Shown here piece after piece: positions 3,101 through 44,942 of a stretch of 44,942 nt of DNA. Below the pieces are notes generated by a model that worked only from the letters and a program-made list of their open reading frames with translations, did no database searches and was not told where the DNA came from. The DNA is from a virus: positions 1-44,942 of the IMG/VR virus record IMGVR_UViG_3300035180_001002. One strand, 5' to 3'. Numbering within the stretch: position 1 is the first letter of the stretch; each line of letters starts with the position of its first letter. A program made the position numbers and the translations under genes.

Positions 3101-3675
3101 CCCCTGACTGGACCCTTTCCACGTTCCGGGCGATGTACAAGGCATTGCCGGGGTCGACCGATCGGCCATTGACGAAGGAACTCCACCAGAAATACGTGAT
3201 GCGTACCGCCGCACTGTGGATGGTGGCGATGAACGGCCTGAACATGCAGACCTCCGGCCACCCGATCTGGGAGAACAAAGACCCAACTCGAATCGAGTTC
3301 AAAGACGGTACCGGCATGCAGATGGCGAAGCACGCCATGGAAGGCCCGGAATGGCTGTTGCACCCTAGGCAGACGGCGTTGAACAAATTGGGTGCGTTTA
3401 CCAAACTGCCATTTGAACTGGCTACCGGTAAAGAATATATCTCGGCGGATGGTGTTGCTCCGCCAATTGATTCACGGACTGGGCACATCATCAAGTCTAT
3501 GGCCCCGATTGCCATTTCTTCGACCGCCAACAGTGACTTGCCGGTCGAAGAGAAGATCAAGCGGTCGACGATGGGTGCGGTCGGTATGCCGATTTATGGT
3601 ATGACGGACGAGCAGAAGGCGGCGTCCCGCGAAGCCCGCAAAGAAGCGAAGAAGCGTAAGAAGGAACGGGAATGA
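37..3675 (+). CDS. Large internal virion / ejection protein (1212 aa)
   Basis: A 1212-residue protein, the last and largest of three consecutive ejection-type genes once the ends are joined. The N-terminus has 15 consecutive prolines (residues 19-33). Residues about 200-230 and 470-510 are Gly/Ala-rich, hydrophobic and possibly membrane-active, with a highly charged coiled-coil stretch between them (about 330-460). The C-terminal third has a block including NDTFGGLDW and LGMFAPDWTLST, which I recall from large podoviral internal and polyvalent proteins. The tail is Lys/Arg/Glu-rich. The start codon overlaps the upstream stop as TAATG, and GGAGG sits about 10 bases upstream. Late expression and injection with the DNA are inferred from position and size. 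No lytic transglycosylase motif was seen. Confidence 0.75.
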   Translation: MPLVPFDGQPIDTSTAVAPPPPPPPPPPPPPPPTPGGPPAPVSAKSTLVPYDPNAAGDSGSDGLTRGKKILGDFWDSLTSESPKEILARGLGPNLVKGTARVFNEARKKQGPEALQLPPPPEGMRYTTDQEYKDTGRALIKVEQPKELSQVLMQAKDFAIARPGATAAEFIKSIGADPELLLPFVGETGLATKLSQVVGRLGKLGGTAGRVLGKGIEGAALGAGISGADQYSTGQGDGAEIASSALITGALSSFVGLRAGHIPAAERASGKISDATAGEILNRYAEKTGAEPDITVADVKRMMHDELHGDADIKARASAQKLHDMDVPDGKAKKALDNPLIKRHYDEITARREQAKQAFEADANDPAKAQADLTARKEELKQQRAKELQAVKQRQMDDETALKAKWEYEDDLNTKKQDVEKAYQVESLWGDRATQKAEAASREAQQAKIDELDKLEHNLRGERSPRGQSGKADPEFLMKLAIPGVGAIMAMKLVEEDKVEAAIAGGLGAAALTYLPRYLEFIRRDWKSAMADTAGVSIVTGLGVTLDKDHPAEGAMLGMLYGAGKVLPKAIVPRIGNMSIDDIINLRNGSIAAREREVANVAWAIKTAVPDPVRREAISRALEKNDLSALSENEVKAAQAYRHFTEGMGSIAMESGVLKDLVENYVTHVVEKVGLPTTRIDEIMDELFAGDASKRTGASGSSPKTPFAKERRYDTFEELQKALEGTDSRIKTMDIADITQIYGESMGRAVENKIMIDSLKRAKEPKEGGSPYIAPYESAPPGYMTINNPQMRGLMIHPDLAKPMQFVLEGKSHNDLLSGAVALATAQKRLAVGFSFFHAANLGNAYIGASGTKSVFGRQAIDAALNAYRNGGAGDTIDMLLKNGLRVERPMEVDQNALARIGELADYGIERATGLKTAAGERTLGSVERVQREVFDRLTWDYMHTGMKLAVGMREFERLTLKHPDVPKEKIAAQVGSYVNDTFGGLDWYRVATESQSQLGRRVGLAALNPQARVFLQLGMFAPDWTLSTFRAMYKALPGSTDRPLTKELHQKYVMRTAALWMVAMNGLNMQTSGHPIWENKDPTRIEFKDGTGMQMAKHAMEGPEWLLHPRQTALNKLGAFTKLPFELATGKEYISADGVAPPIDSRTGHIIKSMAPIAISSTANSDLPVEEKIKRSTMGAVGMPIYGMTDEQKAASREARKEAKKRKKERE
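91..135 (+). repeat. Poly-proline tandem 9-base repeat
   Basis: Fifteen consecutive proline codons, built mainly of four cctcccccg units. The right-end copy (44874-44909) has one unit fewer, giving 12 prolines. The tract lies at residues 19-33 of the large ejection protein. Slippage during replication, population variation or an assembly error could each explain the length difference. Confidence 0.95.
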
Positions 3676-4979
3676 ACGTACTACTTGTTGATCGTGGTGG
3701 ATACATGCTCGACTTTGCCTTGCGCTGCAAGGCTGCGGGGCACGATGTCCGTTGGTTCCTTGGCAAATTCAAGGATGGAGTACGGAACCCCCAAGGGGAC
3801 GGCTTCGGATTGAACAAGGTCACGGCGTGGCACCCGTCGATGAAGTGGGCGGACCTGATCGTACTTCCCGACAACTCGGTATATATGGACGAACTGGAGC
3901 CATACCACCGGGCTGGGTACCCGATTTGGGGGCCGAATAAGGAAATCACCGAATGGGAAATGAACCGCGAGACCGGGGCTGAAGTCCTCCGGTCAGTCGG
4001 TATCAAGACCATCGAGTCGCACAAATTCAAGCGAATTCCTGAGGCCATGTCCTTCCTGATGGCGAACCCTCGGCGGTTTGTGTCGAAGGTGAACGACGAC
4101 AATGACTCCAAGGCTCTGAGCTACGTGGCCAAGTCGCCAAAAGACCTGATGTTCATGCTCCAGAAGTGGGGAAAGATGAAAGCCCTAAAGAGCGAGTTCA
4201 TCTTCCAAGAGTTCACCCCGGGTATCGAAGTCGCGGTCGGGGGCTGGTTCGGTCGTGATGGCTTCTCCAAGTACTTCCTGGAGAATTTCGAACATAAGAA
4301 GTTGATGAACGGGGAGATTGGCGTCAATACCGGCGAAATGGGTACCGTGCTGAAATACACGGAAAAGTCGGCTCTGGCTGAACACCTGCTCCGCCCCCTT
4401 GAAGGACATTTGTACCGTGCGAAATACAGTGGCTACATCGACGTTGCGGTCATCATCGCGAAAGACGGGACCCCGTATCCGTTGGAATTCACATCGCGTC
4501 CGGGGTGGCCCCTATTTGAGATCCAACAAGCGCTTCACCCCGATCCGTGCGCCTGGATGGCGAATTCGCTACACGGGATCGAATCCTTCCGTCCACTGAC
4601 GAAAGTGGCCACCGGGGTCGTCATTACGATGCCCGATTTCCCATTCTGTGCCGCCCCCCGGGCTGAGAAGATGGGGTTCCCCCTCTACGGGTGGGACAAG
4701 ATTCCCGGCAAGAACCTCCACCTATCACAGGTGATGATGGGCGAAGCCCCGGGTGATGACCTCAAGCCAGAGCCAATCCCGGTCACGATCGGTGAATGCG
4801 TCTGCACCATTTCAGGTACCGGCAACACGGTGTCCGAGTCCCAAGCTGCGGCTTACAAGAACGTGGACCGCATCGAGCTTCCGAATTCCCCGATGTACCG
4901 GACGGACATCGGGGATCGGATCAAGGACCAGCTTCCTGTACTTCAGAAGCACGGCTGGATGGAAGACTGGGAATACTAG
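3672..4979 (+). CDS. PurD-like ATP-grasp ligase (phosphoribosylamine-glycine ligase family)
   Basis: A 435-residue protein with the layout of GAR synthetase (PurD): an N-terminal nucleotide-type beta-alpha start (MNVLLVDRGG), a central ATP-grasp, and a C-terminal domain ending in a PurD-like YRTDIGDR (residues 409-416). Residues 217-224, GVNTGEMG, match the PurD GPNTGGMG loop, and LEFTSRPGWP (about 271-280) sits where PurD has its EFNCRFGDPE metal/ATP loop. In that loop Asn of the E-x-N metal pair is Thr and the following Asp-Pro-Glu is lost, so the substrate may differ from glycine plus phosphoribosylamine. It overlaps the ejection-protein stop as ATGA and is followed by the holin, so it is a late gene. 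A purine-pathway role fits a Z-genome phage, but that is inference. Confidence 0.75.
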   Translation: MNVLLVDRGGYMLDFALRCKAAGHDVRWFLGKFKDGVRNPQGDGFGLNKVTAWHPSMKWADLIVLPDNSVYMDELEPYHRAGYPIWGPNKEITEWEMNRETGAEVLRSVGIKTIESHKFKRIPEAMSFLMANPRRFVSKVNDDNDSKALSYVAKSPKDLMFMLQKWGKMKALKSEFIFQEFTPGIEVAVGGWFGRDGFSKYFLENFEHKKLMNGEIGVNTGEMGTVLKYTEKSALAEHLLRPLEGHLYRAKYSGYIDVAVIIAKDGTPYPLEFTSRPGWPLFEIQQALHPDPCAWMANSLHGIESFRPLTKVATGVVITMPDFPFCAAPRAEKMGFPLYGWDKIPGKNLHLSQVMMGEAPGDDLKPEPIPVTIGECVCTISGTGNTVSESQAAAYKNVDRIELPNSPMYRTDIGDRIKDQLPVLQKHGWMEDWEY

Positions 4980-13279: not shown

Positions 13280-14041
13280 TCAGACCTCCCCTCGTTCGCT
13301 GGTCTCGCTGCCTTCGACGTCACCAACGGTCTCGTGGGCGACCCGGAAGTCCTGAGTCTTCAGAACCTCGTAGAGCGCTTCGGCCTGTTCATAAACGGCC
13401 TTGGGGGCGAACCCGGCGGGCTGGACAACGAAGTTGAAGAACTTCTGACCCTTCTTGTTCTCGTCCTTGAACGTGGTCAGCTTGTAGACCCGGCTGAACC
13501 GGTCGCCCCCGGCGATCTGGATCATGGCGTTCCACTTGCGGGATACCTTGGCCTTCGTCTTAGCCATGGAAATCACGATCTGCTCAACCGTGCCGGCAGG
13601 GTCGATGCGCAGGCCGTATTGTACCGGCGTATCGACGATCTCGATCAGGTCGGGGTCTTCACCACCGGCGATGACCTCGGCGCGACGCGCTTCGGCTTCC
13701 TGCATCGAGTTGAACGAGCCGAAGAAGCCGCCGCCCTCGTTCTGGTCCTTCCAGATCAGGTATTCCAGGCGGAAGTAGACAGGTACGAAATAGGCCATGT
13801 CACCGATCACTTCTTGGGTCACCGAGTTGAACAAGTAGCCCTCCTTGGCTTCCTCGTTCGATTCCTTGATCGGGCTCAAAGCCTGGACGATCTCCAGGCG
13901 AGGGAGAACCATGTCGGTCGACTTGACTTCCTCGGATCCCCGAGCGACGCCCTGCTTCATGTAGTCGGGGACTTCCTGCGAGAACGCGACTGCGTTGTCT
14001 TGCCTGGTCACGACTTCGGTTGCGGTTTTCTTGGTAGCCAT
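13280..14041 (-). CDS. Possible ssDNA-binding / DNA-metabolism protein (253 aa)
   Basis: A 253-residue soluble protein with a block, MVLPRLEIVQALSP, followed by an EGYLFN element and an aromatic-rich middle (VPVYFRLEYLIW). It has an acidic C-terminal tail (VGDVEGSETSERGEV), as single-strand binding proteins often do. I have seen this class as a conserved phage protein near replication genes, without firm function. Position beside a helicase and polymerase supports a DNA-binding role, but no OB-fold motif can be proven by eye. Terminator-like hairpins lie on both sides, one upstream at 14067-14105 and others downstream of its small partner gene. Confidence 0.6.
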   Translation of the reverse strand: MATKKTATEVVTRQDNAVAFSQEVPDYMKQGVARGSEEVKSTDMVLPRLEIVQALSPIKESNEEAKEGYLFNSVTQEVIGDMAYFVPVYFRLEYLIWKDQNEGGGFFGSFNSMQEAEARRAEVIAGGEDPDLIEIVDTPVQYGLRIDPAGTVEQIVISMAKTKAKVSRKWNAMIQIAGGDRFSRVYKLTTFKDENKKGQKFFNFVVQPAGFAPKAVYEQAEALYEVLKTQDFRVAHETVGDVEGSETSERGEV

Positions 14042-15087: not shown

Positions 15088-15120
15088 AATAAAATCCTAT
15101 CTGCGCTATCGATCCTGATC

Positions 15121-15149
15121 AGTATACCATGGCCCGGGGGCCGTGTCTA
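15121..15149 (-). promoter_or_regulatory. Sigma70-type promoter TAGACA-N17-TATACT
   Basis: On the minus strand TAGACA (15144-15149) is followed by a 17-base spacer and TATACT (15121-15126), 5 of 6 matches in each box. The spacer holds an inverted repeat, GGCCC-gg-GGGCC (15131-15142), which could be an operator. It lies in the only gap between the SNF2 helicase and the 122-residue gene, so it would drive the genes from 15087 leftwards. Confidence 0.75.
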
Positions 15150-18770: not shown

Positions 18771-19622
18771 TTACTTGGTCTTACCGGCGGCCTTGCCGGT
18801 GCCCTTGGTCGGCGGCACGGGAGGAGCCAGCTTGGTCGTCGAACTGATCGCCGCGACGGCAGCAGCTTCCTTGCCCTTCTCGGCGGCGGCTTCCTGGGCC
18901 TTGACCTTGGCTTCCTCCTTGGCCTTGACATCGGCAGCCTTCTTGGCTTCCTTCTCGGCCTTGATCTTGGCTTCCTCCTTGGCCTTGACATCGGCAGCCT
19001 TCTTGGCTTCCTTCTCGGCCTTGATCCGGGCCTTCTCGGCAGCGGCGGCTTCAGCGGTGGCGTAGCCGTTGGCGTCACGGATCTCGATCACCTTATCGAT
19101 GGTCAGATCGCCTTTCTTGATCGCGCCACGCATGCGATTGCGGAGGTTCATGGACTGCTGGCCGATGTTCAAATGTGCATATTTGTTCTCGGTCAGGCCC
19201 AGTGCGGCGAGACCGAGAGCCACGACATTCGCCACCGGCACGGCATCCAGGGCCATCGCCAGTTCATCATTGCAGCGCAGTTGGCCGGTCATAGACTTGA
19301 CATAGGCGCCAGCCTTGACGCGTTCGGCCAGCGACAACATCGAACCGACGTAGTTGCGGCCAGCGGCCTTCAGTTCTTCGGCACGGGCATCGCGTTCGGC
19401 CTTCTTGGCGGCGGCGGCTTCGGCACGGGCCTTGGCAGCAGTGGCGCGCTCTTCAGCAGACACCTTGGCGGCGGCTTCGTGTTCGGCCTTCTTCTTGGCC
19501 TTCTCGACAGCCGCTTGTTCGGCGGCGACGATCTTGTCGTTCAGGGCCTTGGCCTTGGCTTCGGCGTCGGCCTTCTTGGCGGCGCCATCGGTGGCGTCGG
19601 TGGTGGTGGCGGACTTGCTCAT
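18771..19622 (-). CDS. Ala/Lys-rich protein with paralogous GQQSMNLRN module (283 aa)
   Basis: A 283-residue protein from the ATG at 19622 (AAGGA upstream). Long Ala/Lys/Glu helices flank a compact module (about 92-182) that includes LRCNDELAMALDAVP and HLNIGQQSMNLRNRMRGAIKKGDL. The same module occurs in the protein encoded at 22803-23453. C-terminally a 20-residue Lys/Ala/Glu unit is repeated twice, matching a 60-base DNA repeat. It sits behind its own promoter with a palindromic operator. The charge pattern suggests a nucleic-acid-binding or histone-like protein made early, which is inference. Confidence 0.7.
   Translation of the reverse strand: MSKSATTTDATDGAAKKADAEAKAKALNDKIVAAEQAAVEKAKKKAEHEAAAKVSAEERATAAKARAEAAAAKKAERDARAEELKAAGRNYVGSMLSLAERVKAGAYVKSMTGQLRCNDELAMALDAVPVANVVALGLAALGLTENKYAHLNIGQQSMNLRNRMRGAIKKGDLTIDKVIEIRDANGYATAEAAAAEKARIKAEKEAKKAADVKAKEEAKIKAEKEAKKAADVKAKEEAKVKAQEAAAEKGKEAAAVAAISSTTKLAPPVPPTKGTGKAAGKTK
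18901..19020 (-). repeat. Two 60-base direct repeats inside the 283-aa gene
   Basis: 18901-18960 and 18961-19020 differ at one base. A partial third copy starts at 19021. Each encodes 20 residues of the Lys/Ala/Glu helix (KAEKEAKKAADVKAKEEAK). Confidence 0.9.
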
Positions 19623-19661: not shown

Positions 19662-19703
19662 ATCGAGAATCTCGATTTTACTGCGGGGTCAGACGTGTGT
19701 CAA
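19662..19703 (-). promoter_or_regulatory. Promoter TTGACA-N17-TAAAAT with palindromic operator at the start site
   Basis: On the minus strand AAGGGGGG precedes TTGACA (19698-19703), then 17 bases, then TAAAAT (19675-19680). The perfect palindrome ATCGAGA-T-TCTCGAT (19662-19676) covers the expected start site. The stop codon of the upstream gene is the TGA inside the -35 box. It drives the 283-residue gene. Confidence 0.8.
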
Positions 19704-20137
19704 CCCCCCTTCAGTTCCTCGCCCGTGACCTTGGTCTTGCCCGCTTCAATCGCAGCCTTGACCAGTGCCCGGTACGCCCAATATTCCTCTTCGGTCGCCA
19801 GCGAATAGGTGACACGTAAGCCGCGTTCCTTGGCGGTCTTGTTCATCCTCTCGATGGACTTTTCGGGAGTGCTCAGTTGCTGGATAGCGGTAGCGATCCA
19901 GGAGGGCTGATCAGCGGAGATTATCTTCACTCGGATTTGCTTGAATGATGGCATCTTCTTGACTTTCGTAGGGGGGCTATAAGAGAACATGTCCTTGTCG
20001 GACACTTTACACTTCCAATCATGCCCGCATTTGATACATGACGCGATCCACCCGGTCGATGATTTCGATAACCAATGCCTCCAGTGCAGCTTGCACTTCG
20101 GGCACGTGCGATCGAGCTTGACCGGGCGCTGGGACAT
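19700..20137 (-). CDS. Zinc-ribbon protein of unknown role (145 aa)
   Basis: A 145-residue protein. The N-terminus has a four-Cys ribbon (CPKC near residue 12 and CIKCGHDWKC near 34-43). The rest is a basic alpha/beta domain with KIISADQPSWIATAIQQL and a helical end. Its last codons double as the -35 region of the next promoter. The ATG has only a weak GGTAAG site and lies 3 bases after the lipoprotein gene, so coupling is likely. A nucleic-acid-binding role is possible. Confidence 0.65.
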   Translation of the reverse strand: MSQRPVKLDRTCPKCKLHWRHWLSKSSTGWIASCIKCGHDWKCKVSDKDMFSYSPPTKVKKMPSFKQIRVKIISADQPSWIATAIQQLSTPEKSIERMNKTAKERGLRVTYSLATEEEYWAYRALVKAAIEAGKTKVTGEELKGG

Positions 20138-20140
20138 GGC

Positions 20141-20308
20141 TTACCGCCGACATTCAGCGGTGAAGCAGCCGTGATGTCCCTTAGGCGGGGGGTCTTCACC
20201 CCCTCCACATCCGGTGAGCCAGAACAGCAGACCCAAGAGCATGATCACCAGGATGATGTCGACCGGGTGAAGTGGGTCCTTCTTCGGCAGCAGGGGGTCG
20301 TGCTTCAT
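20141..20308 (-). CDS. Small lipoprotein with lipobox (55 aa)
   Basis: A 55-residue frame starting MKHDPLLPKKDPLHP. A hydrophobic helix (VDIILVIMLLGLLFWL) ends in the lipobox LTGC, and the short mature part is Gly/Pro/His-rich (GGGEDPPPKGHHG) with two more cysteines. The ATG overlaps the upstream stop as ATGA. Size and proline content recall o-spanins (Rz1) and phage exclusion lipoproteins such as Cor or Llp. Its place in the early arm, away from the lysis genes, favours exclusion slightly. This is inference. Confidence 0.65.
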   Translation of the reverse strand: MKHDPLLPKKDPLHPVDIILVIMLLGLLFWLTGCGGGEDPPPKGHHGCFTAECRR

Positions 20309-20664
20309 TTCGGCCCCAGTACCGCACGGGCGGCGTCCCAAGCCTTGGGCTTACGTTCATTGTAATCCGCCTCGAGGTCGAGCAAGTCCTTAGGGAAGAC
20401 GCGGGTCACCGAGCACGGCCTGCGCTGCCGGACACGTAGGCATTCGGCCTTCATGTCCTTCAGGATCACCAGTTCACGCAGGGCATCCTCAGCATGCTTC
20501 ACACGCTGAGCCAAGCCTTCCAACAGTTCAGCGGCACGCGCTATGAATGGGTCACCATCTTGCTGGTTCTCAGTCCAGAGATCTTCGGGGGCCGGGCCGG
20601 ACTCGACCATTTCCCGTAACACCTTCGCAAGCGCTACAGGCTCATCGGCACGTAAGTAATTCAT
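20305..20664 (-). CDS. Unknown helical protein (119 aa)
   Basis: A 119-residue, mostly helical protein (MNYLRADEPVALAKVLREMVESG...) with an Arg-rich middle (RVRQRRPCSVTR) and an acidic helix (FPKDLLDLEADYNERK). GGAG precedes the ATG and overlaps the preceding gene end. The stop overlaps the lipoprotein start as ATGA. No family recognised. Confidence 0.65.
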   Translation of the reverse strand: MNYLRADEPVALAKVLREMVESGPAPEDLWTENQQDGDPFIARAAELLEGLAQRVKHAEDALRELVILKDMKAECLRVRQRRPCSVTRVFPKDLLDLEADYNERKPKAWDAARAVLGPK

Positions 20665-20665
20665 C

Positions 20666-20953
20666 TCACTGCTCCATTTCGCGGATGATCAGGGACGCGG
20701 CGGCGGCTTCGATGTCGTTATCGACAAAGATCCGGCCATGGCCGTCGAGGGTATTCTGGTACGGCAGGCGGGCATAGTCCACAGACTTCTGGCCCCCGAA
20801 GCGCACCGTATGCAGTTTGCGCTGGCCGAAGAGTTCACCCCCCTTCTCGACGGTGACTTCACCGTCCTCCCACACAGAATAGACCATTTGGTTCTTATGG
20901 GCTTCGGGCTTGTGCAGCGCCAGCAGGGCGATCGTTGCTTCTTCGCGGTTCAT
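20666..20953 (-). CDS. Unknown small protein (95 aa)
   Basis: A 95-residue protein (MNREEATIALLALHKPEAHK...) with a beta-rich centre (YSVWEDGEVTVEKGGELFGQRK) and a helical acidic end (EAAAASLIIREMEQ). A leader with GGAG follows an intercistronic hairpin. No family recognised. Confidence 0.65.
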   Translation of the reverse strand: MNREEATIALLALHKPEAHKNQMVYSVWEDGEVTVEKGGELFGQRKLHTVRFGGQKSVDYARLPYQNTLDGHGRIFVDNDIEAAAASLIIREMEQ

Positions 20954-20972
20954 GTTGGATCTCCAAGTGAAT

Positions 20973-20988
20973 GGGGGCGAAATCCCCC
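20973..20988 (-). promoter_or_regulatory. Intercistronic hairpin cassette, copy 1
   Basis: GGGGG-N6-CCCCC follows the stop of the upstream gene and precedes a CATTCACTTGGAGATCC-type leader and ATG. It is one of five similar stop-hairpin-leader units between 20954 and 22800. Confidence 0.65.
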
Positions 20989-20998
20989 AGGGTTGGAA

Positions 20999-21268
20999 TC
21001 AAGTGGGCGGGTGATTCAAAAAGCGCAGGACAAATCCGGTCTCTGTGATGCACCGACCGTGTTTCAGGATCATCAACATATTGGTGTACACGTTGTGCGA
21101 CATGCCGGTCGGCATCAGCATGGCGTAGAAGTGGCCGGAGGGAATGCCATCGGGGCCGGCGGCTTCGATCATTTCGAGCATGATCTTGGCGGCTGTGCGT
21201 GTTGCCTCGATGAGCTTGACACGGCGCTCGATCGCCTCGGCGGTCTTCAAACTGGGATTCTGGTCCAT
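20999..21268 (-). CDS. Small phage protein (89 aa)
   Basis: An 89-residue protein whose centre, AGPDGIPSGHFYAMLMPTGMSHNVYTNML, looks like a small helix-turn-helix or dimerisation domain seen in short phage proteins of unknown role. The leader with GGAGACC precedes the ATG. It has hairpin cassettes on both sides. Confidence 0.65.
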   Translation of the reverse strand: MDQNPSLKTAEAIERRVKLIEATRTAAKIMLEMIEAAGPDGIPSGHFYAMLMPTGMSHNVYTNMLMILKHGRCITETGFVLRFLNHPPT

Positions 21269-21286
21269 GGGGGTCTCCAGGTGAAT

Positions 21287-21302
21287 GGGGGCTCGCGCCC
21301 CC
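21287..21302 (-). promoter_or_regulatory. Intercistronic hairpin cassette, copy 2 (GNRA-type loop)
   Basis: On the minus strand GGGGGC-GCGA-GCCCCC is a 6-base stem capped by a GNRA tetraloop. It is followed by ATTCACCTGGAGACCCCC and the ATG of the 89-residue gene. Confidence 0.7.
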
Positions 21303-21310
21303 GGGTTCGA

Positions 21311-21556
21311 TCAGTCGGCTTCCACTTCGGGGGCGGGCTCGGGTGGCACTTCATTGATGACACCAATGACGAGCTTGATGTCGAGGTCAGCGCCCCGGTC
21401 GCCCGGATCCGACGACAGGACAGCAGCGTCCTTGAACCCGCCGTAATGGCGCTCGCAAGGCTGCAACCTGGCAGCGACAGTCGTCAATACTTGAAGCTCG
21501 GCCGCGCTCAATTCGACGACTGAAGAATGGTAACCGGAAGTGATGACTACGTACAT
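21311..21556 (-). CDS. Unknown small protein (81 aa)
   Basis: An 81-residue protein (MYVVITSGYHSSVVELSAAELQVLTTVAARLQ...) with an acidic, proline-rich tail (VPPEPAPEVEAD). It is the first gene after an operator-bearing promoter (21601-21642) and has TAGGAGATC before the ATG. The N-terminal strand-helix-strand pattern is compact. No family recognised. Confidence 0.65.
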   Translation of the reverse strand: MYVVITSGYHSSVVELSAAELQVLTTVAARLQPCERHYGGFKDAAVLSSDPGDRGADLDIKLVIGVINEVPPEPAPEVEAD

Positions 21557-21600
21557 GGGGATCTCCTAAGGGGTTAACTATCGAACTATCGTGCTCTCTC

Positions 21601-21648
21601 ATCGAGAATCTCGATTGTACCACGCGGGGGCTGGTCTGTCCAGCCCCC
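21601..21648 (-). promoter_or_regulatory. Promoter TGGACA-N17-TACAAT with the same operator, plus 9-bp inverted repeat
   Basis: On the minus strand AAGGGGGC precedes TGGACA (21637-21642), then 17 bases, then TACAAT (21614-21619). The palindrome ATCGAGATTCTCGAT (21601-21615) is identical to that at 19662-19676. GGGGGCTGG-N5-CCAGCCCCC (21626-21648) spans the -35 box and spacer, and could be a terminator for the upstream gene or a second operator. Confidence 0.78.
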
Positions 21649-22136: not shown

Positions 22137-22416
22137 GATTGATGTGGCCATCGGTGGCGTCGACGCTAAATTCGGCCCCGCTGGCCAGCACGACGATCAC
22201 GCCATTCGCGTCGGCGTCCAGGCATTCCACCGTGTCGGTCGGCTGAATGACTCCCACCTTCAACAGCGTGCGCTCCAACTCTTCGTCGGCTTCATCGACT
22301 GCTGACGTGTCCGGGTTGCCCGATTTGTGCGCCAGCACGATGTCCAGCCACTTCGTGACTGCGGCGGCGATGAATGGCGCATCGATTGCGGCGCGATGCT
22401 CAGGGGATTGGTTCAC
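22129..22416 (-). CDS. Unknown acidic protein (95 aa), GTG start
   Basis: A 95-residue protein from GTG at 22416 (VNQSPEHRAAIDAPFIAAAV...), acidic (DEADEELE). The frame is open upstream for another 115 codons into 22761, so a 210-residue fusion is possible. I prefer a separate gene because the join contains a promoter, a GC hairpin and the GGAGACCACC leader that elsewhere precede true starts. No family recognised. Confidence 0.6.
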   Translation of the reverse strand: MNQSPEHRAAIDAPFIAAAVTKWLDIVLAHKSGNPDTSAVDEADEELERTLLKVGVIQPTDTVECLDADANGVIVVLASGAEFSVDATDGHINRC

Positions 22417-22761
22417 GGTGGTCTCCAGGTGAATGGGGGCTCGCGCCCCGGGGTGGGGGGAATTTCCATTGGAACACAACCTCGCTGGGTTGTCAATCCC
22501 CCTTAGCGGCTGTGTTCCAGCGGAGGGGGCTTGCGCCCGAAGGTAGAGGTGGGAGAAGATGGCAGCATCGTCGCTGCTGAGGGTGAGAGTTCGGTAGCTC
22601 CCGTCTGCGTAGTTGAGGGCCACGACGATGCCATCCGGGTAGACATAGAAGGTTTGGCGGACGGTAAGCCCTCGGACTTCGTCGTAATAGGAATTGGCAG
22701 CCTCGGTTACTTCGGTGATGCGGCCGGCGTCGATGTCGGCGAGGAGTCGGCTAGCGTTCAT
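22417..22761 (-). CDS. Unknown protein, open frame lacking its expected stop
   Basis: The frame starts MNASRLLADIDAGRITEVTEAAN from an ATG with GGAGACC upstream. Recognisable protein-like sequence runs to about residue 90 (DDAAIFSHLYLRAQ). Beyond that the frame translates a promoter and hairpin before joining the 95-residue gene in frame (210 residues in all). Stop-codon loss, a one-base error or a true fusion are all possible. A -1 or +1 change before 22497 would allow termination at the TGA of the -35 box, as happens at 19700. Confidence 0.55.
22436..22449 (-). promoter_or_regulatory. Intercistronic hairpin cassette, copy 4
   Basis: GGGGC-GCGA-GCCCC on the minus strand (GNRA-type loop) followed by CATTCACCTGGAGACCACC and the GTG at 22416. 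It lies within an otherwise open frame. Confidence 0.65.
22468..22496 (-). promoter_or_regulatory. Promoter TTGACA-N17-TCCAAT with inverted repeat in the spacer
   Basis: On the minus strand AAGGGGGA precedes TTGACA (22491-22496), then 17 bases, then TCCAAT (22468-22473). ACAACC-N6-GGTTGT (22476-22493) covers the spacer and the -35 end. The sequence after the -10 box (GGAAATTC) resembles that at 23509. Confidence 0.7.
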
Positions 22762-22802: not shown

Positions 22803-23453
22803 TTAGGCTGCTTCGCGTTCGGTGGTGACTGCGGCACGGGCTGCGAGGATCTCGCTGTACTGCAGGAAGCCGTTCTTCACGGCGCCCCGGGCCTTGTTCC
22901 GCAGGTTCATCGACTGCTGGCCAGGGTTCAGATGGCGGTACGGGTTGCTCTCCAGCTTCATCGCCAGGATCAGGGTGGCCACGACCTGTTCACGGGGCAG
23001 GCCGTCCAGGGTCAGGGCCATCGCGTCGCCGCACATCGGGTTGCCGTTCTTGCCCTTGGCGTAGCGCTTGGCGGCGCTGCGAAGGACGAGCATCGGGCCG
23101 GTGTACCCGCCTGCCTTGGGGATGGCCACGGCGTCCAGGGATTCGGCGACGTAGGCCTTGGCCGCGTCGCCCGTCAGCCCCAGGGCTGCGGCGTCTTCGT
23201 GGAGTGCCTTCTCGTAGGCGGCGCGCTCTGCGGCACGCTTGGCGGCGATCTCTTCGGGGGTCTTTGTGGCGGGGGCCGGGGCTGGGGCTGCCGGGGCTTC
23301 GGCTGCCGGGGCTTCGGCTGCCGCCTTCTTGGCGGCGAGGTCTGCGTGCAGGGCCTTCTTGCTGGCGGCCTTGCGGGCCTTCTCGGCTGCGGCATTGGCT
23401 GCGACGGCTTCGGCTGTCTTGTTCAGGGCACGGGGGGCGGGGCGGTTGGCCAT
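22803..23453 (-). CDS. Paralogue with GQQSMNLRN module, first gene of leftward arm (216 aa)
   Basis: A 216-residue protein from the ATG at 23453 with GGAGACCACC upstream. The N-terminal half is Ala/Lys/Pro-rich and low complexity. Residues about 120-205 hold MLVLRSAAKR, CGDAMALTLDGLP, NPYRHLNPGQQSMNLRN and RGAVKNGFL, which align with the protein encoded at 18771-19622. It is the first leftward gene after the divergent control region, so it is probably the earliest expressed. The shared module is a good candidate for DNA binding; I know no named family for it. Confidence 0.7.
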   Translation of the reverse strand: MANRPAPRALNKTAEAVAANAAAEKARKAASKKALHADLAAKKAAAEAPAAEAPAAPAPAPATKTPEEIAAKRAAERAAYEKALHEDAAALGLTGDAAKAYVAESLDAVAIPKAGGYTGPMLVLRSAAKRYAKGKNGNPMCGDAMALTLDGLPREQVVATLILAMKLESNPYRHLNPGQQSMNLRNKARGAVKNGFLQYSEILAARAAVTTEREAA

Positions 23454-23474
23454 GGTGGTCTCCAGGGGGGTTGA

Positions 23475-23493
23475 CGCAGCCGACATGGCTGCG
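23475..23493 (-). promoter_or_regulatory. Leader hairpin of first leftward gene
   Basis: CGCAGCC-N5-GGCTGCG is a perfect 7-base stem in the leader between the promoter at 23509-23537 and the GGAG site before 23453. It could protect or regulate the transcript. Confidence 0.6.
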
Positions 23494-23508
23494 GGGGGGC
23501 GAATCTCC

Positions 23509-23553
23509 ATTGGACACCCGGACGAACACGACGACAACCCCTAAGGTTAGGGG
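23509..23553 (-). promoter_or_regulatory. Early leftward promoter TTGTCG-N17-TCCAAT with abutting palindrome
   Basis: On the minus strand TTGTCG (23532-23537), 17 bases and TCCAAT (23509-23514). CCCCTAA-GG-TTAGGGG (23538-23553) abuts the -35 box and supplies the G run seen at the other leftward promoters. It is weaker by consensus than the others but in the right place to start the arm. Confidence 0.6.
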
Positions 23554-24236
23554 GGTGGAGCCATGTGGCGCGGACGCAACAGCGGGGACCCCCCTCCAGG
23601 GCCCAGGGGGTGTGGGCCTTAGGCCAGGCCTGAGCGCTCCGGGGGCATTAGAGCGCATCCCCCTCCAGGAGGGGGTGGAGTGGCCCCTCCTGGGTCGAGG
23701 AGGGGGGTCTGTGCCCGGTGGTGATATACCCCTCCACCCCCCCTCCTATCTCTCTGATCACAGAGGGGAGGGAGGGGGGGTATGCCCCGGGAGGGATCAG
23801 AGACGTGGAGCACCGTAGACGGGGGGGCGCTCCAGGTAGGAGGGGGGGTGGAGGGGGGGTCTGGGCTGGAGGGGGTATCCACCCGTTTCCTGGGCGTCAG
23901 ATGGGGGTCCAAGGGCCGGGGGCGGGGTCCCCCGCTGTTCTTCGGGTCGAATCGGTGGCGGGTCGGCCCTGGGCCGAGGGGCGGGGGACGACGCGGGCAT
24001 TGGGGGTATTCGGCCTGCCGGCCAGGAGGCGGGGGGGCGGCTGGGCCAGCGGGGCGGGGGCATTCGCGTCCGATATGGGGGGAGGAGCAAGGCGCTAGCG
24101 CTCAGAAAAACCGCAACCCGGTCACTTGTCCTTTCACTATTTTCGAATTTTTGTTACACTTTGTTACAAAGTCCATGTTCCATCGTCCTCGCCCCTTTTC
24201 CCACGCTCCGGAGTCCTCTAACTCAGTGAAGCTATC
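23554..24236. other. Non-coding divergent control region, G-rich and palindromic
   Basis: About 680 bases between the two transcription arms with no convincing gene; the open frames here are low-complexity. The plus strand has many runs of 5-7 G (for example 23767-23781 and 23821-23875). CCCCTCC/GGAGGGG units form inverted repeats such as CCCCCTCC-A-GGAGGGGG (23659-23675) and CCCCTCC-N8-GGAGGGG (23684-23705). GGGGGTGGAG recurs near 23552, 23671 and 23843. G-quadruplex formation is likely on one strand. A replication origin or a packaging site could lie here; neither is proven. Confidence 0.7.
24150..24172. repeat. TTTGTTACA direct repeats with overlapping inverted repeat
   Basis: TTTGTTACA occurs at 24150-24158 and 24160-24168. 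ACTTTG-TTA-CAAAGT (24158-24172) is an inverted repeat overlapping the second copy. It forms an AT-rich island in the GC-rich divergent region, 65 bases before the late promoter. Confidence 0.75.
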
Positions 24237-24265
24237 TTGACACGAGCGCTCGTGTGTGGTCTACT
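24237..24265 (+). promoter_or_regulatory. Rightward (late) promoter with palindromic operator
   Basis: TTGACA (24237-24242), a 17-base spacer, TCTACT (24260-24265). The perfect 16-base palindrome ACACGAGCGCTCGTGT (24240-24255) overlaps the -35 box and fills the spacer, ideal for repression by a dimeric protein. The expected start site falls at about 24272, next to the ATG at 24273. Confidence 0.75.
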
Positions 24266-24272
24266 CGCGGGT

Positions 24273-24764
24273 ATGGATCAACAAACCACTCAGCCAGAAG
24301 CACGAAGTGCGGTGGAGTTGACTCGTCTCTCGATAGATGACGATAACTTCGCGATGGCTGTGGTCGAAACTGGCGGAAACCTAAAAGAGGCGTACATAGC
24401 GGTATTTGGTGAGGATCAATATGCCGCCGCCAAAGCGCGTTTGATGATTGCGCGGCCAGAGATCGTCGCACGAATGGCACAGCTGAGGGACTCTGTTCAC
24501 GAGGCCGACCTCATTTCGGTGGAGTCGCACCTGATACAACTGGCCGAAATCCGGGATATCTCGATCAAGATGGGTGCGGTAAAAGTCGCTTTGCACGCTG
24601 AAGAGAATCGTGGCAAAGTTGCTGGCTATTACAAGGGCAAGGGAGAGGGGTCGGACACGAACAAGACACCTCATCTTCATACCCTGGCTGAACGTTTGCT
24701 CGCGATGACGCCTCAAGGTCGGCAGCAGATCGAAGATGTCGAATCCCGTCAGGTGTTAGGATGA
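24273..24764 (+). CDS. Terminase small subunit
   Basis: A 163-residue protein starting MDQQTTQPEARSAVEL. A helix-turn-helix-like region (ETGGNLKEAYIAVFGEDQYAAAKARLMI) is followed by PEIVARMAQL and a helical, basic C-terminus; this is typical of TerS proteins that recognise the packaging site. The ATG at 24273 has no strong ribosome site and lies at the predicted transcript start; a TTG at 24237 in the same frame coincides with the -35 box and is unlikely. The stop overlaps the large-subunit start as ATGA. Confidence 0.8.
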   Translation: MDQQTTQPEARSAVELTRLSIDDDNFAMAVVETGGNLKEAYIAVFGEDQYAAAKARLMIARPEIVARMAQLRDSVHEADLISVESHLIQLAEIRDISIKMGAVKVALHAEENRGKVAGYYKGKGEGSDTNKTPHLHTLAERLLAMTPQGRQQIEDVESRQVLG

Positions 24765-29059: not shown

Positions 29060-29201
29060 CTGGACCAATGGCACTTACCTTACGGATGATCCGAACCGTA
29101 CCCAACGCATCAACACTGAAGTGTTGGCCCGGGTCGATACTCTGAAAGGTGTCATCAACATGAGCTACGAAGATTATAAGGAATGCTTTAACCATGAATG
29201 A
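28947..29201 (+). CDS. Small protein overlapping the portal 3' end (84 aa)
   Basis: An 84-residue acidic protein (MDNPEILNQEEFTQWRHHPATEAVLLALNHQ...) in a different frame, whose first 113 bases overlap the portal gene. Coding continues for 142 bases past the portal stop and overlaps the GroES-like start by 8 bases, so the region is unlikely to be non-coding. AAGG lies just before the ATG. It may be a small head or packaging accessory protein. Confidence 0.65.
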   Translation: MDNPEILNQEEFTQWRHHPATEAVLLALNHQVREASVNWTNGTYLTDDPNRTQRINTEVLARVDTLKGVINMSYEDYKECFNHE

Positions 29202-29520
29202 AGTCATCAACAATTCAGGTTTGCGGCCCGTTGGCCGTGCGGTCCTGGTTCAGCCTTATAAGGTTGAAGAGTACACCGCAGGGGGTCTGATCCTGCCTGA
29301 CGAGGTTCGCAAGAAGGACCAACTCGCTGAGCAGCGTGCGGTGATCATTGAAATCGCCCCCGGGGCCTGGGCCGGTGAATCCACCCCCCGCGCCCAAGTG
29401 GGCGACCGGATTCTGTTCTCCAAGTGGGCCGGTTACCAAACCATCGGTCCTAAGGATGCAGGGCAGTACCGGATTGTCAATGACTCGGACATTTTCACAG
29501 TCATCACTGAAGGAGAGTAA
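29194..29520 (+). CDS. GroES-like co-chaperonin
   Basis: A 108-residue Cpn10 homologue. LRPVGRAVLVQPY, the mobile loop with TAGGLILPDEV and the acidic roof strands match GroES, whose mobile loop has GGIVL. It should cap host GroEL and help fold phage proteins, most likely the capsid protein, as gp31 does for T4. It is placed between portal and scaffold, so it is made with the head proteins. Confidence 0.88.
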   Translation: MNEVINNSGLRPVGRAVLVQPYKVEEYTAGGLILPDEVRKKDQLAEQRAVIIEIAPGAWAGESTPRAQVGDRILFSKWAGYQTIGPKDAGQYRIVNDSDIFTVITEGE

Positions 29521-43707: not shown

Positions 43708-44820
43708 ATGCCAGATTCAGTTCAACCGTTCGACCTGAACCAAATCCGGGGGAGTACCCAAAACCTCCGGATGGACCTGGAGAAGAAGCAACTTGATCTG
43801 AACCAGATCAAGCAGCAGTACTCCGAGCAGAATGCTATGGTCAAGGATCTCCAGCAGATCGACCCGGCCCTGGATTTCTTGGACAAGCTTACCAAAGCCC
43901 AGGAAGTGGCGATGGCTCACGGTAGGCTCGAAGATGCCACCAAGATCACGAATTCGATTGGTATGCTGGCCTATCGCAAAGAGTTGACCGATTCACGTAA
44001 AGCACTGTCCGAGAAGCAACGCATCGAGGGCGAGGCCAAAGAGCAAGATTCCGTGTTCAAGGCTGTCGGCGTTCCTCAAGATGAAGAAGGGTGGAACAGC
44101 GCCCGGATGATGGCGTTGTCGATGCACCCGAATCTTCCTGAGGAGACGCGCAAGATGCTCCAGCAGCCATGGTCCCCCGGGCTGAAGCAATTTCTCGAAA
44201 ACAGGTCCATGGACCCGGCCAAGAGGGCTGAACTCGACCAGAAGAGTGTTGAATCTGATGCACGGGTTCGCGCTGATCAGGCATTGGAGCAGCAGCGCCT
44301 TGCTACTGCTGAACGCACAGCTAAGCTGTTGCCTTATGAAGTTGGTGAGAAGCGTGCGGCGACCTACGCCCACTCGGCTGCCGCCGATCTTTCGGCCACC
44401 CGTGCCCGCATTGAAACGGAACGGCTGGCGGCTGAAGCCAAGAATGGCGGCAAGAACGTCCCGAAGCTGATCGAACCAACCAAAGAAGATCGGGTTGATA
44501 CTGAAGATGTCCTGAAGCAAAAATTCCCGGAAGGCTTGGGTGGCTCGGACATGAAGGCGGCGCGGGTATATCTCGCTGCTGAAGCCAAGAAGATCCAGAC
44601 CCAGGACAGGTCCGATTTCGGATCGGCCCTGCGCAAAGCACTCGTTAAGAATGATGGCCTGGTCTATGTGAAGAGCAAGTCGATGTTCGGTAAGCCGACG
44701 TACGCCTTCAAAGAAATGCCGACTGATTTGCCTGCGGGGTTCGTCTTCAAGGGCCGGGTCTCGCCCAAGGGTAATCGGGTCTTTGAGAACAAAGACGGTC
44801 AGATGTTGGAGGATCAGTAA
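43708..44820 (+). CDS. Internal / DNA-ejection protein 2 (370 aa)
   Basis: A 370-residue, highly charged, mostly coiled-coil protein with several heptad regions (KKQLDLNQIKQQY, ATRARIETERLAAEAKNGG). The C-terminus is basic. Position between ejection protein 1 and the 1212-residue protein makes a channel component likely. Its stop overlaps the next start as TAATG at both the left and right copies of the genome end. Confidence 0.7.
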   Translation: MPDSVQPFDLNQIRGSTQNLRMDLEKKQLDLNQIKQQYSEQNAMVKDLQQIDPALDFLDKLTKAQEVAMAHGRLEDATKITNSIGMLAYRKELTDSRKALSEKQRIEGEAKEQDSVFKAVGVPQDEEGWNSARMMALSMHPNLPEETRKMLQQPWSPGLKQFLENRSMDPAKRAELDQKSVESDARVRADQALEQQRLATAERTAKLLPYEVGEKRAATYAHSAAADLSATRARIETERLAAEAKNGGKNVPKLIEPTKEDRVDTEDVLKQKFPEGLGGSDMKAARVYLAAEAKKIQTQDRSDFGSALRKALVKNDGLVYVKSKSMFGKPTYAFKEMPTDLPAGFVFKGRVSPKGNRVFENKDGQMLEDQ

Positions 44821-44942
44821 TGCCTCTCGTCCCATTCGACGGCCAGCCGATCGACACCAGTACGGCTGTTGCTCCGCCCCCGCCTCCCCCGCCTCCCCCG
44901 CCTCCCCCGACTCCCGGGGGTCCCCCCGCCCCGGTGTCAGCC
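44784..44942. repeat. Right copy of genome-end overlap
   Basis: The same sequence as 1-168 with one 9-base proline-codon unit fewer. It shows that the window wraps around. Confidence 0.95.
44820..44942 (+). CDS. 5' part of large ejection protein, second copy (partial)
   Basis: The first 41 codons of the gene at 37-3675, repeated because the ends overlap. Here the poly-proline run is 12 residues instead of 15. It is not a separate gene. Confidence 0.95.
   Translation, partial: MPLVPFDGQPIDTSTAVAPPPPPPPPPPPPTPGGPPAPVSA

Follow-up and report, generated by a model that had tools for sequence, protein, structure and literature searches.

Two identical copies of a perfect 15-base palindrome, ATCGAGATTCTCGAT on the minus strand, lie in the same register over the expected start sites of two leftward, putatively early promoters of a virus (IMG/VR record IMGVR_UViG_3300035180_001002, whose whole analysed stretch of 44,942 nucleotides is here called the window). 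The best single reading of this arrangement, with a probability of roughly 0.45, is a lineage-specific operator through which a dimeric repressor would cover the start sites of both promoters, the operator being laid on a conserved discriminator; a reading that does without a repressor and assigns the element to the core promoter alone is a close contender. The sites concerned are:

19662 to 19676, minus strand: palindrome copy 1, ATCGAGATTCTCGAT, whose first AT closes the -10 hexamer TAAAAT and which contains the expected +1
21601 to 21615, minus strand: palindrome copy 2, the identical 15 bases in the same register to the -10 hexamer TACAAT
19675 to 19703, minus strand: promoter P19, TTGACA-17-TAAAAT, with 11/12 consensus positions, driving the Ala/Lys-rich gene at 18771 to 19622
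21614 to 21642, minus strand: promoter P21, TGGACA-17-TACAAT, with an extended -10 TG
15121 to 15149, minus strand: P15, the third early promoter, TAGACA-17-TATACT, then GATCAGGATCGATAG
21624 to 21646, minus strand: 9-pair inverted repeat GGGGGCTGG-ACAGA-CCAGCCCCC surrounding the P21 -35, a hairpin in read-through RNA

A sequence search of the full window places both copies, each in a leftward promoter, exactly where an earlier note on this DNA had located them; the genome, which looks complete, holds no third copy, and the next-best match (13631 to 13645, 2 mismatches) lies inside a coding gene. The palindrome is a 7+1+7 perfect dyad with the arms ATCGAGA and TCTCGAT around one central base. 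The earlier note had it follow the -10 box immediately: its fixed register at both promoters stands, and its beginning has to be moved slightly, as the dyad shares the last AT of each hexamer and thus overlaps the box by two bases. The accompanying claim, that the dyad covers the expected start site, agrees with the start predicted from the sequence: purine-rich discriminators of the GGG kind set the start 7 bp past the -10 (PMC5730371), so the expected +1 of both P19 and P21 falls inside the dyad, and at both sites the symmetry overlaps the -10 as well as the expected +1.

P19 and P21 have the two highest scores among the 11 promoter-like sites returned by a promoter scan between 9 and 26 kb. 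Their hexamers are spaced within 16–18 bp and purines occupy positions 2–4 past the -10, as in sigma70 promoters with a purine-rich discriminator; they are best explained as strong sigma70-type early promoters that the host sigma70-type RNA polymerase would read. What the two have in common is the -35/-10 consensus and the dyad; since spacer, upstream and downstream sequences differ, they do not stem from a recent promoter duplication, and a gene-conversion tract of some 16 bases could account for the identity without any repressor. At P15 the in-register likeness of the downstream sequence to the dyad is limited to TCGAT, and there is no palindrome. The arrangement around the P21 -35, i.e. 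a hexamer in the loop of a G-tract/C-tract hairpin, recurs in several of the related IMG/VR contigs (designated by L numbers), namely L155 (e.g. GGGGGGTTGACAACCCCCTTTT), L149, L151, L016 and L153; it resembles an upstream terminator fused with a promoter and is not general (mean z -0.6).

One perfect palindrome alone means little, since palindromes with arms of at least 7 are not rare in the window (11, compared with 7.65 ± 2.9 in order-2 Markov simulations), and an identical pair arises in 1 of 60 such simulations. The position of the copies is more demanding. Measured against column frequencies taken from 54 related promoters, the probability of the 13-mer that follows the -10 is 7e-6, and two independent draws would agree with a probability of 3e-6; a perfect dyad at that centre has a probability of 2e-4 under the family base frequencies, all these values being rough in that the calculation assumes independent columns and the rows, which come from one family, are related to one another. 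The occurrence of the same dyad twice in the same promoter register is not due to chance.

For comparison, relatives were taken from IMG/VR; INPHARED holds no close DNA relatives of the phage. The orthologous P19 promoter is present in about 17 related contigs, which carry CGGGGTTCTC(N) at the position of copy 1 within an imperfect dyad, the sequences past the -10 being CGGGGTTCTCAG, CGGGGTTCTCGAT, CGGGGTTCTCCG, CGGGATTCTCCG, CGGGCTTCTCCG and similar. In the nearest relatives, L166 (terminase 75% identical) and L009/L162, the corresponding sequence is ATCGGGGTTCTCGAT, with 2 differences that both break pairs; read in the other direction, the window differs from ATCGGGGTTCTCGAT by two G-to-A changes, each of which converts a broken pair to a matched one. 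The search of relatives for the motif, which the earlier note had proposed, thus recovers the left-half pattern and finds no perfect palindrome at their promoters; among the relatives compared, perfect symmetry at the promoter is so far confined to this phage.

In 59 curated promoters of the family the information past the -10 is limited to positions 1–8, [AC]G[AG]GGTNC, and then drops to about 0.1 bit. Position 2 is G in 79%, positions 3 and 4 are A/G in 94% and 91%, respectively, and pyrimidines occupy positions 6 (91%) and 8 (86%), in agreement with a predicted +1 at position 7. Judged from this pattern, positions 1–8 are the discriminator plus the start region, and because the pattern covers these positions, the left half of the palindrome is ordinary for the family; its special part is the right half, positions 9–13 (TCGAT). 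At the L166 promoter syntenic with P21, TACAAT-CGAACTTGGTCGAT, which reads ATCGAACTTGGTCGAT, the outer arms ATCGA..TCGAT are found again, an observation that supports an operator weakly, since TCGATAG is a common leader string in the family.

Covariation between the arms is absent from 66 family promoters, in which the number of paired positions stays as it was when right arms are exchanged between promoters (z 0.34 at centre 6). At 3.05, the longest run of perfectly matched arm positions slightly exceeds that of composition shuffles (2.65 ± 0.09), an excess that a shared consensus can produce, and promoters from the same genome resemble one another no more closely than those taken from different genomes, i.e. 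there is no within-genome operator sharing. A family-wide operator is rejected by the arm-swap test and by the comparison within and between genomes: symmetry is neither kept at the orthologous P19 sites nor replaced by covarying arms.

These results count in favour of the possibility, tentative yet serious, that no repressor is involved and that the element belongs to the core promoter, where a purine-rich discriminator read by sigma region 1.2 would lead into pyrimidines at the start region, either copied from one site to the other or reached at both by convergence, the symmetry being a by-product of purines before +1 and pyrimidines after it. The family-wide conservation of positions 1–8 with near-zero information beyond, the retention of CGGGGTTCTC without perfect symmetry, the lack of both covariation and within-genome sharing, and the 7-bp distance to the start are all what a core-promoter element would display; moreover, in the distant relative ZP6 the -10 of the promoter before the homologous gene is followed by AAGGGTTCCTT. 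What such an element leaves unexplained is TCGAT at positions 9–13, unconserved in the family, identical in P19 and P21, and completing the dyad. The operator reading is weakened in turn because the left half is accounted for by the discriminator, because P15 has no dyad and because relatives share no operator. The shared repressor proposed in the earlier note is supported in part: in its favour are the identical dyad over the expected +1 of two otherwise unlike promoters, the position of that +1, which speaks against a hairpin in the primary transcript, and the predicted winged-helix protein of the P21 operon; its force is reduced by the conserved discriminator in the left half, the imperfect sites of relatives and the missing covariation.

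A function in RNA is improbable. The dyad would act as a 6-bp hairpin in read-through transcripts, downstream of the strong P21 hairpin, as a processing or termination signal, or else as an antisense terminator, and indeed the P21 read-through RNA folds as two hairpins (-34.4 kcal/mol, z -5.8), while copy 1, read on the plus strand, runs into ATTTTA and was flagged terminator-like. Taken alone, however, the dyad, folding at -5.6 kcal/mol, is not clearly stabler than shuffles (z -1.4), the minus strand has no T-run and neither has copy 2 on the plus strand. Furthermore, with the expected +1 within the dyad, transcripts from P19 and P21 would carry only its right half and the hairpin could not form in them, which favours a role at the DNA level.

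Least probable of all is recognition of both sites by a host-encoded repressor, whether because the host silences the phage or because the phage has captured a host regulon. Many host repressors bind at a perfect dyad over +1; however, a pattern joining the motif to a promoter and requiring TTGACA had 2 matches in 84,980 prokaryote genomes, about 3 being expected from base counts. These promoter-linked matches are at chance level, which speaks against host promoter mimicry, and the host-encoded variant of the repressor put forward by the earlier note finds no support in this survey. Other viral contigs also speak against it, since among the matches listed their palindromes are not at convincing promoters. 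The palindrome occurs in at least 119 viral loci, and 18 loci with TANN before it were found; the best -35/-10 combination among the matches listed is AAGACA-16-TATTAT, none being convincing, for which reason a general viral operator is rejected. Among the matches listed and tested no palindrome locus encodes a relative of this phage, and the relaxed form ATCGA-N4..7-TCGAT was found at promoters in 27 loci, none from this phage's family. The literature searched contains no paper on this 15-bp element.

The operator reading can be cast as a sequence of events. Host sigma70-type RNA polymerase would read P19 and P21 early; the first eight bases past the -10 (CGAGATTC) would serve as the family discriminator and start-site sequence and would have been completed, so far only in this phage, to the identical perfect dyad over +1; an early-made dimeric repressor would then bind both dyads and block the polymerase, thereby limiting or shutting off the two early transcripts together. 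The binding protein, the repression and its timing are what we infer from the arrangement of the sites. The genes relevant to the search for such a protein are:

18771 to 19622, minus strand: opening gene downstream of P19, for an Ala/Lys-rich protein whose conserved GQQSMNLRN domain is found also in phiVC8-like and ZP6 phages
21311 to 21556, minus strand: opening gene of the P21 operon, for 81 aa, to which the searches found no relatives
20999 to 21268, minus strand: second gene of the P21 operon, for 89 aa with a predicted winged-helix fold, a candidate repressor

The 89-aa protein is a candidate for the dimeric repressor on the strength of its modelled fold, in which a long helix at the N terminus leads into a winged helix (AlphaFold2, pLDDT 86). 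Its look-alikes in the PDB (Foldseek, VIA-align) include repressors of the Fur/PerR, MarR and ArsR types, a Campylobacter peroxide regulator aligning over 78 residues with Z 9.6 and rmsd 2.5; structural matches extend to MarR (Z 9.1), SelB and the winged helices of cullin and RPA, and because the latter two are among them DNA binding does not follow from the fold. The Foldseek E-values are weak, the best being 0.064. Scans of IMG/VR and INPHARED confirmed no relatives of this protein; tblastn in the fetched loci gave six distant matches, and four relatives carry a distant homologue just ahead of the P19 gene, the promoter of the winged-helix gene and P19 sharing no common operator there. No Pfam regulator was found among the phage proteins tested, and no CI/Cro-like gene was recognised.

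The Ala/Lys-rich product of the P19 gene was considered as an autorepressor and rejected, its predicted domain (pLDDT 85) having no significant PDB match and resembling only other phage proteins. This gene has orthologues in many relatives, with the promoter orthologous too. It has a paralogue at 22803 to 23453, also Ala/Lys-rich and with the GQQSMNLRN domain; most fetched relatives also have two copies, and homologues occur in phiVC8-like phages and in Alteromonas phage ZP6.

The phage encodes homologues of PurZ, DatZ (YfbR-like), DUF550/MazZ and a DpoZ-like DNA polymerase, a set reported for PurZ-type phages with 2-aminoadenine DNA (PMC12884076). Going by these genes, 2-aminoadenine probably takes the place of adenine in this phage, so that in progeny DNA the palindrome probably has 2-aminoadenine at its A positions. 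A much fuller version of the operator reading, doubtful as a whole, would have a lytic-type 2-aminoadenine phage control two early operons by a small winged-helix repressor of its own, acting at a 15-bp operator that arose by two lineage-specific base changes inside the conserved discriminator; one and the same sequence would be sigma contact and repressor site, recognised in modified (Z:T) DNA once replication has taken place. Should the repressor exist, the two sites would offer a candidate transcription switch in a phage of this probable DNA chemistry and a clear example of point changes that create an operator within a discriminator.

Among known systems, operators overlapping the -10 or +1 of phage early promoters include lambda OR/OL with CI and Cro and those of the early-shutoff repressors of lytic phages. 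The present sites are like OR/OL in that a dyad lies over or near the core promoter, is repeated at more than one early promoter and would, when bound by a dimer, exclude polymerase; they are unlike OR/OL in having a single 15-bp site, not an array, at each promoter, in lacking a recognised CI/Cro-like partner and in not being conserved in relatives. The likeness to the bacterial GGG-type discriminator contacted by sigma region 1.2 (Haugen et al. 2006, as cited in PMC4593229) resides in the purine-rich sequence right after the -10 of the family promoters, the prevailing G at the second position and the pyrimidines flanking the expected +1; the known element, however, does not reach positions 9–13 and need not be palindromic. 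With the 2-aminoadenine phages phiVC8 and ZP6 the phage shares genes having the same conserved domain, one of which is preceded in ZP6 by the promoter mentioned above, whereas their sequence differs, no 15-bp palindrome is held in common and the scanned phiVC8 promoters have no such motif.

A further palindrome, which the earlier note had connected with the early sites, belongs to the late promoter:

24237 to 24275, plus strand: late promoter, TTGACA-17-TCTACT, with the palindrome ACACGAGCGCTCGTGT at 24240 to 24255

It exists as described and lies between the -35 and the -10; the window has three palindromes with arms of 8, of which it is one. At one end it consists of the ACA that belongs to TTGACA, at the other of the TGTG that belongs to the extended -10, and the nearest relative does not keep it, L166 having TTGACACGAGTTCCCGCCTGTGC with only ACACGAG retained; the corresponding position in L006 reads ACACGC-N6-GCGTGT. 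Given its other place in the promoter, its absence from L166 and ends made of promoter elements, we rejected it as a third copy of the early element, and the proposed link does not hold. The start codon of the small terminase lies 7 nt past the late -10 in the window, so that the mRNA should be leaderless; likewise, an ATG follows the late -10 by 5–7 nt in L006, L007, L009, L014, L016, L021, L023 and L166.

On the early strand, twin boxes ATAG-N3..6-ATAGGA occur family-wide just before start codons, in the window at 15109, 18654 and 21540 to 21600 (all minus) and in relatives across L005–L023 and L143–L166, also at cistrons without a promoter. ATAG is present 63 times in 52 promoter leaders, compared with 7.7 ± 2.7 in shuffles, and the twin boxes are possibly a translation or RNA-binding signal. 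If there is no repressor, the useful outcome is the promoter pattern seen across the family, with its discriminator, paired ATAG boxes in the leaders and leaderless late start, by which the transcription units of uncultured relatives can be annotated. Several early genes are preceded by a repeated intergenic hairpin plus ribosome-binding segment (GGGGGCGCGAGCCCCCATTCACCTGGAGACC, minus strand; 21254 to 21306 and 22404 to 22454).

In the window the replication genes form a leftward arm and the structural genes a rightward one, the latter with terminase, portal, major head protein and matches to head closure and tail proteins. Bases 1–159, including a 9-base tandem repeat (CCCCCGCCT), recur exactly at 44784 to 44942, and because its ends carry this direct repeat the record looks complete, being terminally redundant or circular. 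About 750 bases between the arms (23465 to 24230) contain no convincing gene, and their plus strand is exceedingly rich in G, with numerous G-tracts; they possibly represent an origin or packaging region. The stretch from 3672 to 4979 has a weak match, below the cut-off, to phosphoribosylglycinamide synthetase domains (GARS) and may be a purine gene in a 2-aminoadenine phage, and the structural arm includes a Cpn10/GroES-like chaperonin gene at 29194 to 29520.
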